Shown here: piece by piece, positions 34,913 to 42,433 of the stretch | Numbering within the stretch: the stretch's first letter is position 1 | How the letters are laid out: every line of letters starts with the position of its first letter | Assembly: GCF_001050195.2 (NCBI RefSeq) | Contig: NZ_DF967965.1 | Coordinates: 1,296,845 to 1,360,844 of the forward strand | Direction of reading: 5' to 3' | DNA length: 64,000 bases | Origin: Anaerolinea thermolimosa | Lineage (GTDB): Bacteria > Chloroflexota > Anaerolineae > Anaerolineales > Anaerolineaceae | Position numbers and translations under genes: made by a program | Notes under the pieces: generated by a model | The model's database searches: none | What the model was told of the DNA's origin: nothing | The model's input: only the letters and a program-made list of their open reading frames with translations

Positions 34913-36217
34913 TCATTCTGGGCCAGAAGGGGAGCAATCGGTGCTTTGATGAAACACGAGAGTAGTCGTGGCATGAGGTAAGATCCCAATTTTTGGGGAG
35001 AAAGGATAGCTTTTAAGCACATTTTGGAATGCAATCTGAATATTCGGCGCAGATTGTAAGAGAAGACGTTGCACGCGTTTTTCATCGATGTTCGACACCA
35101 GAATGATGTTGAATTTTTCCAATAAACGGGCAACCTGATATGCCTTATGGGGACCTACCTGAAAGCCCAGCGTTTGAAAATGAGAGTAAATTTCATGGAT
35201 GGATTGCTTCCCTTCCATAAACTGCTCATACGCTGTACTGCCAATTCCTTCAGAACATTCGGCTAAAAGAACAATTGTGCCGCCAGGTTTACAAAACATA
35301 GAAGCATGGGTGATGGCTTTTTGGGCCTGATAAAAGTTAATGTCCTTAGGATATCCCCCGGCAGAGGCGATTACCAGATCAAAGAGTTCAGGGCAATCGA
35401 CCCCCCATAAAGCTCTGGAGGCGGTAATCCCTTCACGAATGATTGCTTCAGGGTGACCGGCAAAAACCCTTACGATCTTTTTATCGTGGTTTAAAATGGC
35501 ATTGACTGCCAGATGCACCCCGATTCTGGACCCAATTTCTTCGATATCCTGTCGCAGTGGATTTTTCTCAAATTTGCCGATCCACGCATCAGGGTGGGTT
35601 AATAGAGCGTGGTTGGCATTGATGGTGGGCCAACCGGCAAGGCCAATCGCTGCTGTTTTATATCCTCCAGAGAACCCGGCGAAGTGATGAGGCTCAATGT
35701 CGCCAACCACTATCTTGAGGTCAGCCTGATAGAACTGCCGATTAACCCAGACAGGGGTTCCCCGGCTGGTTGTTCCAAGATAGATCAGATTCTCTTTATC
35801 TTCGATATTATGAGAAAAGACTGGATACTGCTCTACAATGGATAAAGGAAGAATGGAAAAAAATTCTTCCGTTGTCATTGGTAAATGTGAACCGGTGGCA
35901 ACCCAGATCGAAATCTGTTGCCGGGGAATACCTATGGAGCGCAGCTGTTCCAGCAATGGAGGAAGCAGTAAATGGTTGGGGACTGGTCTGGTTTTGTCAT
36001 TAATGGCAATGGCTACTTTTTGATTTTGAAAAACAGAGGCCCAAAAATTATTTTTTTCGGGAGATAAACTGAGAGGGGCTTGTAATGCCTGTTTTACCAA
36101 TTCCAAAGGATCGGAGGCTGGTTCGAGCGCCGGAGGAGCGATCCACTTCTGAGGGTAATCCTCAGAAATATCGAGTTGTTGAAATGATTTACCAAAAGGT
36201 AATGAATATAGAGCCAT
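34913..36217 (-). CDS. larA: LarA-family nickel-pincer racemase/epimerase
   Basis: Homologue of lactate racemase LarA (434 aa), an enzyme using the nickel-pincer nucleotide cofactor to epimerise 2-hydroxy acids. The active-site pattern is intact: DKTRP at 74-78, His111, His177, Lys187 (GFSGGYKTA) and His203. These have the same spacing as His108, His174, Lys184 and His200 in Lactobacillus LarA. The cofactor enzymes LarB, LarC and LarE are not in this window. The true substrate may be another 2-hydroxy acid, because the family is broad. Confidence 0.88.
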   Translation of the reverse strand: MALYSLPFGKSFQQLDISEDYPQKWIAPPALEPASDPLELVKQALQAPLSLSPEKNNFWASVFQNQKVAIAINDKTRPVPNHLLLPPLLEQLRSIGIPRQQISIWVATGSHLPMTTEEFFSILPLSIVEQYPVFSHNIEDKENLIYLGTTSRGTPVWVNRQFYQADLKIVVGDIEPHHFAGFSGGYKTAAIGLAGWPTINANHALLTHPDAWIGKFEKNPLRQDIEEIGSRIGVHLAVNAILNHDKKIVRVFAGHPEAIIREGITASRALWGVDCPELFDLVIASAGGYPKDINFYQAQKAITHASMFCKPGGTIVLLAECSEGIGSTAYEQFMEGKQSIHEIYSHFQTLGFQVGPHKAYQVARLLEKFNIILVSNIDEKRVQRLLLQSAPNIQIAFQNVLKSYPFSPKIGILPHATTTLVFHQSTDCSPSGPE

Positions 36218-36242
36218 GGGTTTATTTTACCGCAGGGAATGG

Positions 36243-36917
36243 TTAATTAAGCTCGGTTAACCCCTGAGCAACCTCCCAGGAGGTCTTACTGAAATGAGCA
36301 TGGAGGGCCTGTTCTCTTCGATAAATACGGAGAGTTGTTCGCAGTAACTGAGGAGCAGGTAATATTTCCAGCAGCTTTTGTTTTTCAAAAGCAGGAATTT
36401 GTAGTATTTCACAGGCCATAAAAATCAACAAAGTCGGGTCATCTGGGAGTTGAAACTGGTGTAAATGGTTTTGAATGGATTCAGTCTCCCTATTGTTACT
36501 TGCTTCACTGATGCACTGGATGTAGGATTTTACCATTTTATAAAGAAGGCTTGCTCCCCTGACCACTTCCAGGGTCCGGGGGGATTCCGTGGGGAGAACT
36601 TCGACCTTCCCAACAGGAAAAGGATGGTAGCTCATAACTTCGGAAATTCGAAACCGATCCTGTCCTACAGCAATGAGATCAATCTGCCCGTCAGGAAGTG
36701 TTTTTAAGTGGATAATATGGGCAATGCAACCAATTTCAGATGGGGTGAGGGGAGGTATGGGGTATGGTTCTATTATTTGATACAAAGTGCCCAGGAGATG
36801 ATCGGCTGCCATTGCTTTTTGCACCATTAACCGGTATCTTTCTTCGTGAATGTGCAGGTGTATGGGCATTCCAGGAAATAATACGGTATTTATTGGAAGT
36901 AACGGTAAAGTTAACAT
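36243..36917 (-). CDS. Lon N-terminal (LAN) domain protein
   Basis: A 224-aa protein that matches only the substrate-binding N-terminal domain of Lon protease: LPLLPINTVLFPGMPIHLHIHEERYR at the start and IGCIAHIIHLKTLPDGQIDLIAVGQDRFRI in the middle. The C-terminal half is helical (LLEILPAPQLLRTTLRIYRRE). There is no ATPase or protease domain. Stand-alone LAN proteins are common and poorly understood. It lies 25 bases upstream of the larA homologue. Confidence 0.88.
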   Translation of the reverse strand: MLTLPLLPINTVLFPGMPIHLHIHEERYRLMVQKAMAADHLLGTLYQIIEPYPIPPLTPSEIGCIAHIIHLKTLPDGQIDLIAVGQDRFRISEVMSYHPFPVGKVEVLPTESPRTLEVVRGASLLYKMVKSYIQCISEASNNRETESIQNHLHQFQLPDDPTLLIFMACEILQIPAFEKQKLLEILPAPQLLRTTLRIYRREQALHAHFSKTSWEVAQGLTELN

Positions 36918-37008: not shown

Positions 37009-37689
37009 TCAAGGCGCAAGCTTGGGATCTACGAAAATTTCTACATAAAATGTGCAACGCACCAGGGAGCCTTCGGTGAGTGTCCAGTAGGTAAGATAAT
37101 AACCGGGGTCTTTGGGGGCAACCATAGATATCGTAAGGTCGAAATTACTACCTGAGACCACGTTGGTTGGAAAATCAATCAGGTTCTTGCTGGTATGCAT
37201 TGGCGTACCTCCCCCGAACCTGACATCAATATTATCTTTCGTCCAATCGCGGTCGCTGGTGTTTTGCAGAGTCCACAACGTGGTGAAGGAGGCACCTGGA
37301 GCGACACTGGAACCATCTGCTGGTGATTGATTAATGACTTTGCATTTTCCAGCCAGTGGTGGACGTTCATTCGTGGGATAAATGGTTTTGGGAATCGGGG
37401 TTAATGTTGGGAGAACAAAAGGTGTAAAAGTTGCCAGAGGCGTTGATGTTGGTCGACGAGTGGGAGTAAATACTTCGGTGGGGAGGGATGTGGGAGTCCA
37501 GGTAGGGGGTAAACGGCGAGGGGTGGGAGTGAAGGTTGGAATGAACAAAGAGGTGATCCCACCTCCGTCTGGCGGAAAAGGGTTGAACGGCATATTGGGG
37601 TTGATGAAGATCACCAAGAAGATGATTACCATCCCAATCATTCCAATGATCAGGAGGAAAGTTAGTATATCCCAAACTGATGTTTTCAT
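37009..37689 (-). CDS. Membrane-anchored NBR1-Ig-like domain protein
   Basis: A 226-aa protein with one N-terminal membrane span (about residues 8-30), then a Pro/Thr-rich linker (about 48-105, with repeated TPTxxP) and a C-terminal NBR1-like Ig domain (about 115-226: GSSVAPGASFTTLWTLQNTSDRDW and a Trp-rich WTLTEG strand). This arrangement is common in Anaerolineae and resembles surface-displayed proteins. The ligand is unknown. Confidence 0.82.
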   Translation of the reverse strand: MKTSVWDILTFLLIIGMIGMVIIFLVIFINPNMPFNPFPPDGGGITSLFIPTFTPTPRRLPPTWTPTSLPTEVFTPTRRPTSTPLATFTPFVLPTLTPIPKTIYPTNERPPLAGKCKVINQSPADGSSVAPGASFTTLWTLQNTSDRDWTKDNIDVRFGGGTPMHTSKNLIDFPTNVVSGSNFDLTISMVAPKDPGYYLTYWTLTEGSLVRCTFYVEIFVDPKLAP

Positions 37690-37960: not shown

Positions 37961-38488
37961 TTATCGCCGTTTAATGCTTCGAGCGAGTAAGAGAATAACT
38001 CCACCAACCAAACCCGCTGCAGCCCCGAAGAGAAGTGCTTCTCTAGACCCAAAAAGCGGCGTCAATTCACCTTCTACGTTTTGGGCGATCAGGAAAACCA
38101 CACTGCTATCTTTGAAGACAGCATTTCGGGTAACCATCACTGCTGCAGCACTCTGGTCCATGTTAACATCGGAACCGGCAACGATTACTTTGCTGGAAGA
38201 CTGATCCATGACTACACCTGTTCCAGCTACCACTGCACCGGCAGAGGAGTTGCTCAGATGGGCATCTTTCTGGGATTGAACGAGGCCCAGCTTACTTCCA
38301 TTCACATCGGCACTTTCTGCGTTTAGTTTTATCAGCGCGGTCTGTCGTAAAGTTGCGGTATTCGCTTCGGCGGATTGCACGATGCCCTGTCGCACGGTAA
38401 TGTGGTTGGCGATCAACCGCTCTGAACGCTGCCCTTTTATCTCCAATTCAGCATTCCAATCGTGGTTTTGATTTTGTTGTGGATACAT
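37961..38488 (-). CDS. Beta-solenoid-like repeat protein with C-terminal membrane span
   Basis: A 175-aa protein of unrecognised family. From about residue 20 it consists of imperfect repeats of 15-16 residues with alternating hydrophobic positions and a D-Q or R-Q end, for example SSAGAVVAGTGVVMDQ, SSSKVIVAGSDVNMDQ and SAAAVMVTRNAVFKD. This is the pattern of a small right-handed beta-solenoid, as in bactofilins. The C-terminus (about 148-170) is one membrane span followed by KRR. It is the last gene of the ECF transporter group, 24 bases after ecfT. A scaffold or polymer-forming role is inference. Confidence 0.7.
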   Translation of the reverse strand: MYPQQNQNHDWNAELEIKGQRSERLIANHITVRQGIVQSAEANTATLRQTALIKLNAESADVNGSKLGLVQSQKDAHLSNSSAGAVVAGTGVVMDQSSSKVIVAGSDVNMDQSAAAVMVTRNAVFKDSSVVFLIAQNVEGELTPLFGSREALLFGAAAGLVGGVILLLARSIKRR

Positions 38489-38511: not shown

Positions 38512-39369
38512 TTACATGGGGAACCAGAAATCGCCTGTGTGAAAAACAAACCGTAACAGAAGACTCCCTACCAGGATGAGTATAGATATCCCAATCATAA
38601 GATAATCTATCTCCTGGTATTTCAGGGATTCAACCCAGGTTCTCTTTTTTAATCCGAAACAACGCAAATCCATGGCATTGGTAATATCTTCTCCGGCTAA
38701 AATGGCATTCATGGTCACCGGAACAAACAAAGGAGCCATTCTGCGGATTCGGGTAAAAAGATTACCTTCTATTTTTTCCACCTCGTAACCTCGAGCACGC
38801 TGAGCGTCCAGAGTAATCTGAAAATCCCGGGCGAGTGTTGGTATAAAACGGAAGGCTAAATCCATGGTAAAGGCCAGTTTGTCGGGTAATCCAATCCCGC
38901 GAAAAGTCACTCCGTACTTTCGCGGATCCATGGTGAATGGAATAACCAAAAATAACGAGCCAATGGAAATAATGCGTAAAAACTGGGCTAATGCAAACCA
39001 TACCCGTTCTCGGGTGAGTACATAATGGATGATCCACCCTGTGACCGGAATTTTGAGCTGGAACTGGAGTAAGGGTTTTCCACCGCTAATAACTCCCCCG
39101 ATGGTTCCACCGCCGGTGATAATGGTGTTAACCAGAATCATCATCGTGGAGAGTACGAGGATAAATAACCATGCCCGGCGGGTTTCCTGCCATGTCAAAC
39201 GTGCCAGGAATACCTGGAGGATGGATAAGACAAAGAAAAAAGATAGAATACGAATGTCCCAGAAAAGAACAATGGAAAATAACAACGCAAGAGACATGAT
39301 CCACCGGGCGCGTGGATCAAAGCGTTCTATGAAGCTATGCCTTGGGCGGTAACTGAAACTAACCAGCAT
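38512..39369 (-). CDS. ecfT: ECF transporter transmembrane protein EcfT
   Basis: Membrane coupling subunit of an energy-coupling factor importer (285 aa). It has several membrane spans and a cytoplasmic coupling helix with DAQRARGYEVEK, the Ala-Arg-Gly motif that contacts the ATPases. RFDPRAR near the N-terminus is also typical. The start is ATG 39369 after AGGAGGTTTCC; an upstream ATG lacks such a site. It follows the S-component gene. Confidence 0.9.
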   Translation of the reverse strand: MLVSFSYRPRHSFIERFDPRARWIMSLALLFSIVLFWDIRILSFFFVLSILQVFLARLTWQETRRAWLFILVLSTMMILVNTIITGGGTIGGVISGGKPLLQFQLKIPVTGWIIHYVLTRERVWFALAQFLRIISIGSLFLVIPFTMDPRKYGVTFRGIGLPDKLAFTMDLAFRFIPTLARDFQITLDAQRARGYEVEKIEGNLFTRIRRMAPLFVPVTMNAILAGEDITNAMDLRCFGLKKRTWVESLKYQEIDYLMIGISILILVGSLLLRFVFHTGDFWFPM

Positions 39370-39436
39370 GGAAACCTCCTGCTGATCCAGTTTCCAGGGC
39401 AAATCGTGGAAACTGGATCAGCGTAAGGCCTGGAAG

Positions 39437-39982
39437 CTAACGGCCGGACCGGGCTACTATGGCACTATATGCAACCATGAGGATGGGAACGAGGATTAAT
39501 CCATTGATGACGTTGGTAATGAATGCAGGGACGAAATTGAGCGAAATCGCGGTTGCCAGATCTATCCCCGAAACCCAAATTTCCGAGAGAGAAGCAACTC
39601 CCATTCCCAGGGCAACCCCGAGGACAACCATGCCTTCTGCTTTTAAGAGATCTCCCCAGCTGCGAAAATCTTTGATGCTCAGGTAAATCAAACCTGGAAC
39701 CAGGGCCATCAGGCCGTTTCCAAGATCCCACCAGGGCCAAAAACCATATCCTGAAAGCAAGTCTGAGAGGATGTTCCCAATGGCTCCAGAAAGAAACCCG
39801 ACGATTGGCCCAAAAGCTACACCGAAGAACATTGGAATGGCTACAGCAGGGCGAAGGGAGACGTTACCAGCACCGGGAATCTGGAGTAAATTGGTTGCAT
39901 AAGACAGGACTCCATAGAGAGCAGCGCCGATGGCTGCAAATACGACTTCACGAGTACCAAAAGTCCACAATGATTTTTTCAT
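39437..39982 (-). CDS. ECF transporter S component
   Basis: The substrate-binding membrane subunit (181 aa, about six spans). EVVFAAIGAALYGVLSY at the start, then RPAVAIPMFFGVAFGPIVGFLSGAIGNILSDLL, is the pattern of ECF S components in the group of unassigned substrates. The start is ATG 39982 after GGAGGTGTTACG. The cluster with two SAM hydroxide adenosyltransferase genes suggests a nucleoside- or thio-compound-related substrate, but that is only context. Confidence 0.85.
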   Translation of the reverse strand: MKKSLWTFGTREVVFAAIGAALYGVLSYATNLLQIPGAGNVSLRPAVAIPMFFGVAFGPIVGFLSGAIGNILSDLLSGYGFWPWWDLGNGLMALVPGLIYLSIKDFRSWGDLLKAEGMVVLGVALGMGVASLSEIWVSGIDLATAISLNFVPAFITNVINGLILVPILMVAYSAIVARSGR

Positions 39983-40011
39983 CGTAACACCTCCGAATTT
40001 GAAGAACTGAA

Positions 40012-41628
40012 TCAAAGATAGTTAACCAGAGCTTCCGCCCGCATGAAGCGCCCGGTCCGCGGAAGGAGCTCAAGGTTCAACCGTAAGAGAGAAGTGGGTA
40101 ACACATGGGTACTGCGAAGCAACTCTGTGTCACTTAACACTTCTTCGGGCCGTCCATCGGCCATGATCTGGCCATCTTTAAAGAGGAGAATACGGTTGGA
40201 ATAAATTAAGGCCAGGTCAAGATCATGGGTGATAAATAAGATGGCATCAAACCCCGGCATTTGAATGATTGCATCCATAAAAGAGAGATAATTCCAGTAA
40301 TCCTGGCCAGTAGTTGGTTCATCCATCATCAAGATTCTAGAGCGCATGGCCAGAATGGCAGCAATGCTTACGCGCTTTTGCTGGCCAAATGAAAGTGCCA
40401 GCGGCGGAGACTTTCTTTCATGGAGAAGATTCACACTCTTTAATGCCCAATCAACATTTTGTTGAATCTGTTCGGGGGGATGCTTCAGGTTTTTGGGGCC
40501 GAATTCAAGTTCTTCCTGCACGGTAGGAGCAAAAAGCATCTGAGAAGGACTCTGGAAGACATATCCAAGGGTGGCGGCTGCCTGAGCTACCGAGAGCTGT
40601 TGTGTGGGCTTCCCTTCCAGAAAAACGGTACCTCGGGTTGGTTTGAGAAGGCCAATGGCATGTTTCACCAGAGTAGTTTTCCCGGCACCGTTGGGTCCCA
40701 GAATCGCAATAATATCTCCCTGGCGAACGGAAAAATTGACGTCCTTCAGAACCAGGTCGCTTTCTGGTTTGTATCTAAAATTCACATGATCAAAGCGAAC
40801 CAGTTCTCTGGGGTCTGTCGGGGGTGCAGGCGGACAAATTGATGGGAACGAACCGGGTGTCAACCGCTTCACCACAACCTCAGCGGGAAGTTTTACCCGG
40901 TTTATTTCGATTGTGTCGAGCATCCCCTGGGGATCTCCAGAATATATTACCTGGCCATCCTCCATATACATCACACGATCAGGATGGATTGCCAGCACAT
41001 CTTCAACACGATGTTCTACCATGATAATGGTTATTCCATCGTCTGCAAGTTTCCGGAACATTTGTAATGCATCAGCGGCAGAGACAGGATCAAGGCTTGC
41101 AAGGGGTTCGTCCAATAATAAAATTTTTGGTTGCATTACCAGAATGCCAGCCAGGGCTACTTTTTGTTTTTCTCCACCCGATAAACTGAAAGTTTCACGA
41201 TCTCTCAGGTGAGATATTTTCAGGTATTCCAGGGTTTCTTCAACCCGATAAATGATCCTCTGTCGTGGAACTGCCAGGTTTTCTAAACCGAAAGCCACTT
41301 CGTTAAATACATGACTGGAGACAATTTGCCGCTCAGGATCCTGAAGTAAAGTGCCTACCTGCTGTGAAAGCTCAGACATACTGAGCTGTTGAACTGATTT
41401 ACCGAAAATGGCGATTTCTCCCGTTAAGTCTCCCGAATATACTCTGGGAGCAAGTCCATTGATGCAACGTAACAGGGTGGTCTTTCCACATCCACTGGTA
41501 CCGGCAATGAGGAGAAGCTCACCTGGTTTTACCTCCAGATTAATGTTTGTGATGGAGGGTGTGTTTCGCCGATGATAGCGGAAAGTCAGGTTTTGGATAT
41601 ACAGAGGAAGTTCTTGGTCCATCCGCAT
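40012..41628 (-). CDS. ECF transporter ATPase with two fused nucleotide-binding domains
   Basis: A 538-aa protein with two complete ABC domains. The first has GTSGCGKTT, FSLSGGEKQKVALAG and ILLLDEPLASLD. The second (from about residue 270) has GPNGAGKTT, a LALSFGQQKRVSIAAIL signature and ILMMDEPTTGQD. It corresponds to EcfA and EcfA' in one chain, as in YkoD-type systems, and powers the S and T subunits encoded next. It starts 16 bases after the second SAM hydroxide adenosyltransferase gene. Confidence 0.93.
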   Translation of the reverse strand: MRMDQELPLYIQNLTFRYHRRNTPSITNINLEVKPGELLLIAGTSGCGKTTLLRCINGLAPRVYSGDLTGEIAIFGKSVQQLSMSELSQQVGTLLQDPERQIVSSHVFNEVAFGLENLAVPRQRIIYRVEETLEYLKISHLRDRETFSLSGGEKQKVALAGILVMQPKILLLDEPLASLDPVSAADALQMFRKLADDGITIIMVEHRVEDVLAIHPDRVMYMEDGQVIYSGDPQGMLDTIEINRVKLPAEVVVKRLTPGSFPSICPPAPPTDPRELVRFDHVNFRYKPESDLVLKDVNFSVRQGDIIAILGPNGAGKTTLVKHAIGLLKPTRGTVFLEGKPTQQLSVAQAAATLGYVFQSPSQMLFAPTVQEELEFGPKNLKHPPEQIQQNVDWALKSVNLLHERKSPPLALSFGQQKRVSIAAILAMRSRILMMDEPTTGQDYWNYLSFMDAIIQMPGFDAILFITHDLDLALIYSNRILLFKDGQIMADGRPEEVLSDTELLRSTHVLPTSLLRLNLELLPRTGRFMRAEALVNYL

Positions 41629-41644
41629 GGTGGTTTATCGATTG

Positions 41645-42433
41645 TCAGGAAAATTTCACAGTGATTTGATCCCCAATGCCCAGGCCGAGCCTCTTTTGGG
41701 CTGAGCCGTTAACGACGCCTATTGAAAGAAACCCTGCGCTATCCACCAGGGCTACCAGTTCCCCTGGCTGCCTGTCTCCAAAAGCTTTTGAAATTCCATC
41801 AATGCGGGCTGTGCCCGCCAGAATGATGACTTTTGATTCCTCTCTGAGCAAATCTCCGGCTAAATTTGTGGATAAATTCCCGAAATGATCCACATGAATG
41901 ATATGAGCAAGGAAGCCATCCTCTGTCTTTTCGGGTTCGGGAAGTGACAGTTGAACAGGGTCGTACACCCGGGTTCCCATCTGGTCTGGCGAAATTCCCC
42001 GGGCAATGTATGCTGCAGCAGGGGCAAAGATATCGCGACCATGGAAGATGGAGCTGACCTCTTTGAGCCAGAATTGTGGTTGGTCAAGATGGAAATACTC
42101 AACAGGATGACCCCTATTCTCAACTTGCCTTGCGGCAACAGAGACCAGTCCGTTATCAGGGCCGACGAAGAATTGATTTCCAAGTCTCACGGCCAGCGGA
42201 CGTCGATTTGTACCTACACCGGGGTCAACTACCACGACATGGACTGTTCCGCCAGGAAAGTAGGGGAGAGCACGGTCAAGAACAAGTGCCCCAGCCAAAA
42301 TATTATGACGGGGCACATCATGAGTTAAATCAACCACTTTGGTTTCAGGCGCAATAGACCATATCACCCCGTGGAGGATGCCACAGGCATAATCGCTGTG
42401 GCCAAAATCGGTCGTTAATGTGACGAGGCTCAT
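41645..42433 (-). CDS. SAM hydroxide adenosyltransferase (DUF62), copy 2
   Basis: Member of the S-adenosylmethionine hydroxide adenosyltransferase family, which splits SAM with water into adenosine and methionine and is related to fluorinase and chlorinase. Visible motifs are TLTTDFGHSDYACGILHG, VVVVDPGVGTNRRP (Asp and Arg of the triad), FVGPDNGL and FHGRDIFAPAAAY (His of the triad). The halide-site loop of fluorinase is not evident. Length 262 aa is normal. Its start overlaps the stop of copy 1 by 4 bases. Confidence 0.9.
   Translation of the reverse strand: MSLVTLTTDFGHSDYACGILHGVIWSIAPETKVVDLTHDVPRHNILAGALVLDRALPYFPGGTVHVVVVDPGVGTNRRPLAVRLGNQFFVGPDNGLVSVAARQVENRGHPVEYFHLDQPQFWLKEVSSIFHGRDIFAPAAAYIARGISPDQMGTRVYDPVQLSLPEPEKTEDGFLAHIIHVDHFGNLSTNLAGDLLREESKVIILAGTARIDGISKAFGDRQPGELVALVDSAGFLSIGVVNGSAQKRLGLGIGDQITVKFS

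Follow-up and report, generated by a model that had tools for sequence, protein, structure and literature searches.

The gene at positions 37961–38488 on the minus strand of the window (the whole 64-kb stretch of DNA analysed here) encodes a protein of 175 amino acids, P0001, belonging to a real, uncharacterised and phylum-wide family of tail-anchored beta-helix rods, in which known kinds of part occur in a new combination. Our preferred reading, to which we give a probability of about 0.5, is that P0001 is a C-tail-anchored, single-pass and probably cytoplasmic beta-helix rod which is clustered by a glycine zipper and acts as a scaffold at the membrane. The first 142 residues are predicted with high confidence to form mostly a stiff beta-helix rod, and sequence and prediction together suggest that a linker ties the C-terminal end of this rod to a glycine-rich membrane helix with a basic tail. 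The rod would be kept in the cytoplasm along the inner face of the membrane, while a GxxxG zipper might pack the anchors into dimers or small clusters. Because the conserved zipper would pack the anchors, several rods may be presented near the membrane, where their repeated polar ladders could provide other proteins with a scaffold or a docking platform. The membrane scaffold is our best guess, and polymerisation is possible.

The positions named in the original prediction coincide with exactly one complete open reading frame, with its ATG at 38488 and its stop ending at 37961; the minus strand is newly assigned here, and the plus strand over 37961–38488, read in the same frame, contains stops. 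The gene is described as a beta-helix with a C-terminal membrane anchor from the ORF list and its translation, and its family is assigned by homology. A disordered N-terminus (residues 1–11, 38456–38488, minus strand as for all parts of the gene) without hydrophobic signal, as indicated by pLDDT values below 50 over residues 1–10 and by low hydropathy, precedes the predicted beta-helix (residues 12–142, 38063–38455), which AlphaFold2, DSSP and a period test resolve into about eight rungs of 15–16 residues. Rungs set by hand at residues 27–41, 42–56, 57–71, 72–87, 88–103, 104–119 and 120–134 give seven repeats, of which four span 15 residues and three span 16, with partial rungs at the ends. 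In the chain ahead of the anchor, hydropathy autocorrelation is highest at lag 15 (0.31), and the signal at lags 14–16 was reached in none of 5000 residue shuffles, or in 1 of 2000 when lags 5–25 were scanned. With a strict VILMF scale the autocorrelation drops to 0.25, and 12 of 5000 (lags 14–16) and 35 of 2000 shuffles (lags 5–25) reach it. The at least seven repeats of 15–16 residues originally proposed are confirmed by these rungs and shuffles, and with about eight rungs the term "mini" is apt; the recurring M-D-Q ends are present as a motif, but in two copies alone (residues 94–96 and 110–112). Alignment of 27 family members gives a mean period autocorrelation of 0.40, peaking at 15 in 24 members and at 16 in three, and among 170 family proteins the best lag is 15 in 153, 16 in 16 and 22 in one.

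AlphaFold2 was run with P0001 and 11 relatives. The model of P0001 has a mean pLDDT of 84.9, with block means of 90–98 at residues 21–140, where DSSP assigns nearly all residues to strand, and a C-terminal helix at residues 148–174; the structure prediction proposed originally as a check has therefore returned a solenoid with a terminal helix. When the relative L071 was modelled instead from these 12 sequences, the architecture matched (pLDDT 78.5). This second member shares the architecture of P0001 at 22–23% identity, and as both predictions use the same input sequences they are not independent. Neither model has a Foldseek match in the PDB at E ≤ 0.001. VIA-align scores of Z 9.5–13.4 were obtained against beta-helices of both hands, and such Z values may reflect a common arrangement alone. 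Superpositions of the models on 4kh3 (Ag43, 2.5 Å over 144 residues), 6n2b (tapirin, 2.2 Å over 128), 5nxk (SRRP, 2.5 Å over 149), 5gzt and 4wa0, which we take to be right-handed helices, lie at 2.2–3.1 Å. Across the VIA-align results the rmsd is 2.0–3.2 Å for right-handed helices as against about 10 Å for LpxD and GlmU, which are presumably left-handed, and the left-handed group including carbonic anhydrase reaches Z values up to 13.4 with an rmsd of about 10 Å or more in nearly all rows. Since the rmsd is low for right-handed entries and about 10 Å for left-handed ones, we infer that the modelled helix of P0001 is probably right-handed. A viral structure library contained no match to the model at E ≤ 0.001; a phage protein in it was listed with a Foldseek probability of 1.00, an E-value of 0.038 and a TM-score of 0.51. 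Sequence searches of solved structures gave best E-values of 0.19 for P0001 and 0.042 for the profile, both from unrelated proteins, which were rejected.

The best 19-residue Kyte–Doolittle window (KD19) of P0001 reaches 2.42 at residue 151 and is followed by R170, S, I and KRR175; this value and the predicted terminal helix bear out the single C-terminal span with KRR of the original prediction. The putative membrane span (residues 151–169, 37982–38038) carries the glycine zipper G155-x3-G159-x3-G163. Between rod and span lies a short linker (residues 143–147, 38048–38062), where the model has no secondary structure and a block pLDDT of 57 (residues 141–150), and the span is followed by the basic tail RSIKRR (residues 170–175, 37964–37981), read from the translation and in line with the charge trend of the family. 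KD19 is at least 1.6 in 128 of 130 proteins from the class (Anaerolineae) and in 29 of 40 from outside it. At least two K or R occur within the last four residues of 117 of the 170 proteins. The mean charge after the span is +2.7 in the class and +3.1 in the others, compared with −0.2 and +0.6, respectively, for the 15 residues ahead of it; 12 of the 130 class proteins have a post-span charge of zero or below, and none of the other 40 does. Three sequences of one family outside the class (f118; L236, L237 and L248) show, by eye, a second hydrophobic segment past the anchor.

Conservation is highest at the membrane end, in the last-rung glycine G140 (VxGxV, 38069–38071; 119/129 in the class and 35/39 elsewhere in the phylum) and in the anchor glycines G155 (125/129 and 38/38) and G159 (119/129 and 33/37), followed by A151 (107/129 and 37/38) and G163 (84/124 and 13/36), in a set of sequences that was chosen with a profile of 27 of them and favours the conserved columns of that profile. 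The total length ranges from 123 to 201 amino acids among the 27 members. We infer from these sequences that selection may guard the rod–membrane junction and the packing of the helices more than the length of the rod.

P0001 has no match in Pfam-A or NCBIfam at E ≤ 10, and the matches of its 27 relatives are weak and scattered, none occurring in more than three members, in agreement with the unknown family claimed earlier. Matches to LptD_N (E 0.0033, one member), Beta_helix (0.0072, three members), an ATPase model (0.0048, one member) and LptA/LptD models (0.016–0.031, two members each) were taken as a shared beta-repeat pattern or chance. At E ≤ 0.1 a search with P0001 alone gave matches in 42 of 101 related genomes, not all of them true: two weak matches (L026 and L030) are IF-2 by reading of the loci, others in frames of about 600 amino acids are probably IF-2 too, and all were dropped. 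From the 28 true loci, 27 were aligned, one (L024) being cut by a contig end. The resulting profile matched 115 of 298 genomes of the class at E ≤ 1e-3, the two weakest matches (E about 7e-4) being doubtful, and 117 of 400 genomes of the phylum at E ≤ 1e-4; the gene itself is its sole match in its own genome. Roughly one third of the sampled Chloroflexota genomes thus carry a family that is yet without a Pfam-A or NCBIfam name. Outside the class 98 genomes matched, and 39 of these were taken, giving 40 loci (two from one genome); the class loci include three (L063, L066 and L070) assigned to Chloroflexi only, and L068 and L072, which duplicate L078 and L094, were excluded. When 84,980 species genomes were scanned, P0001 gave 226 pattern matches and no relatives, and a six-member alignment 36 matches and 11 relatives, all from Anaerolineae, Anaerolineales or Chloroflexi MAGs; as the scan was built on one motif, the limit to Chloroflexota holds for that motif. 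Six phylum homologues have an in-frame stop inside the match (TGA in G471, G622 and G624; TAG in G450, G576 and G618), and these stops recur within genera, possibly reflecting a shorter C-terminus, an error or recoding. Judged by titles and abstract openings, the literature searched on bactofilins, beta-helices and beta-solenoids, tail anchors and the cytoskeleton of Anaerolineae and Chloroflexota held no description of this family.

Upstream of the gene (38512–42433, minus strand) Pfam identifies a SAM hydroxide adenosyltransferase, a double ABC ATPase, a riboflavin-type ECF S component and a CbiQ-type T component; the T-component gene ends 23 bp ahead of the P0001 gene, which closes this ECF-transporter run. 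The gene order of the module is the same in both other members of the genus that carry the gene (three members in all). The gene just downstream (37009–37689, minus strand) encodes a membrane protein that combines a P/T-rich stretch with an NBR1-type Ig domain (PF16158); 34913–36917 (minus strand) encodes a lactate racemase of LarA type and a protein with a stand-alone LON substrate-binding domain. Promoter-like and terminator-like sites are fewer than in shuffled sequence (5 against 7.8 and 4 against 6.6), and no Rfam families occur within the window. Across the class, 125 of the 130 loci extend for 900 bp or more past the gene, and in 65 of these a co-oriented rplY, the gene for L25, comes next within 1.5 kb (66 when all 130 loci are counted); the median gap is 70 bp to the longest-frame start. 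These loci are not independent: families f29 and f52 account for 25 of the 65, and rplY is adjacent in every one of the nine loci that came from the motif scan. The conserved pair (at L064 5008–5556, for example) is accompanied in some of the class by mfd, pth, a NUDIX hydrolase and a TrmI-like methyltransferase (names by reading). In the genome studied here, rplY lies about 207 kb from the P0001 gene and keeps NUDIX- and TrmI-like neighbours (names by reading), so the P0001 gene seems to have left this place. In other lineages an M16 peptidase gene lies upstream at 14 loci, or an isocitrate-dehydrogenase-like gene downstream at 8, again named by reading. Genomic context gives no single partner, and neighbours differ by lineage.

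This context bears on the idea that the protein is a translation or stress partner, co-expressed with L25/Ctc and tethering ribosomes to the membrane in the manner of YqjD, which is C-tail-anchored and binds ribosomes through its N-terminal region (PMC6389858). Adjacency to rplY, which 16 of the 33 mapped families show at one locus or more, favours such a partner, but it falls to 2 of 40 loci outside the class, is absent in the present genome, gives way elsewhere to the M16 peptidase, isocitrate-dehydrogenase-like or ECF genes, and may be inherited order only; we regard a ribosome tether as very unlikely. The side of the membrane on which the rod lies is a separate matter. By hydropathy alone, P0001 has the features of the C-tail-anchored class, a C-terminal span and no N-terminal signal. 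The charge pattern, taken by the positive-inside rule alone, places the C-terminus inside and hence favours a rod outside, exported without a cleaved signal; it would then be a short beta-helix at the surface or facing the cell wall, comparable to tapirin or to autotransporter passengers. Several of the low-rmsd PDB matches are likewise extracellular beta-helices. However, a single span rarely has about 140 exported residues in front of it, and a hydrophobic N-terminal stretch appears in just 3 of 170 ORFs in a hydropathy screen with predicted start sites. YqjD, with its similar di-arginine anchor (PMC5525287), has its N-terminus inside, because its N-terminal region binds ribosomes (PMC6389858). 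A rod outside the cell is therefore improbable, and in the light of the hydropathy screen the sequences make a cytoplasmic rod at the inner face of the membrane most likely. Besides the opposite positive-inside pattern, we count against the scaffold reading the neighbours that vary by lineage, the pLDDT of the anchor block (57–78), the 11 of 40 sequences outside the class with KD19 under 1.6, and the Foldseek result against the PDB.

The remaining alternative is a bactofilin-like polymer, in which the rods would stack end to end into non-polar filaments and built-in anchors would replace the N-terminal targeting peptide. Bactofilins are right-handed beta-helices. The likeness to them noted in the original prediction holds for the predicted fold: the L071 model superposes on BacA (2n3d) with Z 10.4 and rmsd 2.4 Å over 94 of 103 residues, although 2n3d ranks 30 among the best 50 matches listed, tied with unrelated beta-helices, and bactofilin chains are not among the best 50 listed for P0001, which is no test of absence. 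Kinship is another matter. PF04519 does not match P0001 at E ≤ 10, matches one of 27 members (E 0.034), and in the own genome matches two other places and not the P0001 gene. The profile comparison proposed earlier (hhalign) gave probabilities of 10.0% over 35 columns, 7.0%, and 9.4% with 170 sequences, which leaves kinship unsupported: these values exceed column-shuffled controls (0.1–0.2%, 5 of 5) and L25 (0.1%), but the aligned stretch is 29–35 columns, about two rungs, and the within-family positive control gives 99.9%. The family HMM scores weakly (2.1–9.2 bits in a 15-sequence search) on 15 bactofilins aligned from 18 read among 30 loci (L115 and L130, with misread frames, and L129, with an extended start, were left out). 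These bactofilins start with M-F in 14 of 15 cases, have no span (KD19 at most 1.18) and give no autocorrelation peak at lags 15–18 (−0.03 to 0.02), so the period method is blind to the bactofilin repeat. A separate PF04519 bactofilin over the cut-off occurs in 25 of 26 genomes searched. A canonical one scores 82.2 bits in the own genome, a further point against the polymer reading; the bactofilin at G000:C1:300764–301054 starts with MFRK, of the N-terminal targeting peptide type. According to PMC12448750, about 3.2% of bactofilins have a membrane span, and it is N-terminal, in agreement with the original statement that they seldom carry a C-terminal one. The same paper places a polymerisation interface at their C-terminal end, which in P0001 enters the membrane within a few residues, and the variable length of the members is unlike a fixed end-contact unit. 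The predicted fold thus resembles that of bactofilins while, by sequence, membership fails. Bactofilin-like working is possible, but we consider a polymer of this kind unlikely. Slightly less likely still would be a second, phylum-wide beta-helix cytoskeletal class in Chloroflexota, working beside the ordinary bactofilin: its transmembrane rods would be clustered by their glycine-zipper anchors and would stack into filaments or patches bound to the membrane.

The predicted scaffold has parallels in several known systems. Its beta-helix resembles those of tapirins, Ag43 and SRRP (rmsd 2.2–2.5 Å over 128–149 residues), presumably extracellular adhesins, whose chains of 306–492 residues are larger than P0001. 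A parallel in arrangement is offered by the Toastrack proteins (LiaF and LiaG; DUF2154/DUF4097/DUF2807), which, according to PMC11237479, have a right-handed beta-helix near a span, predicted to be intracellular and proposed to assemble sub-membrane complexes; their span is mostly N-terminal to the helix, whereas it is C-terminal in the P0001 family. None of the 27 members matches a Toastrack Pfam model at E ≤ 1, a threshold at which they match 21 families, and inspection by eye of the 22 neighbour clusters listed revealed no PSP/Lia genes. Nor does any of the 27 match DUF883, which we take to be the family of the E. coli proteins ElaB, YqjD and YgaM. Like these three, P0001 has no N-terminal signal, a glycine-rich C-terminal span and a basic end, the anchors of ElaB and YqjD carrying a positive patch that ends in di-arginine, according to published work (PMC5525287, PMC6389858); unlike them, it has a beta-helix in place of their N-terminal domain. 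Bactofilins (PF04519; BacA, BacM and CcmA) share with P0001 a small, membrane-associated beta-helix, but attach by an N-terminal peptide, or rarely an N-terminal span (PMC12448750), where P0001 has a C-terminal span. Rungs of mostly 15 residues in the P0001 family may be a further difference from the 16–18 reported for bactofilins in the BacM paper, which predicted a left-handed helix (PMC4372379). A bactofilin-like rod and a bacterial tail anchor are thus joined in one short protein, and the family offers a simple test case of whether membrane-fixed beta-helices scaffold or polymerise.
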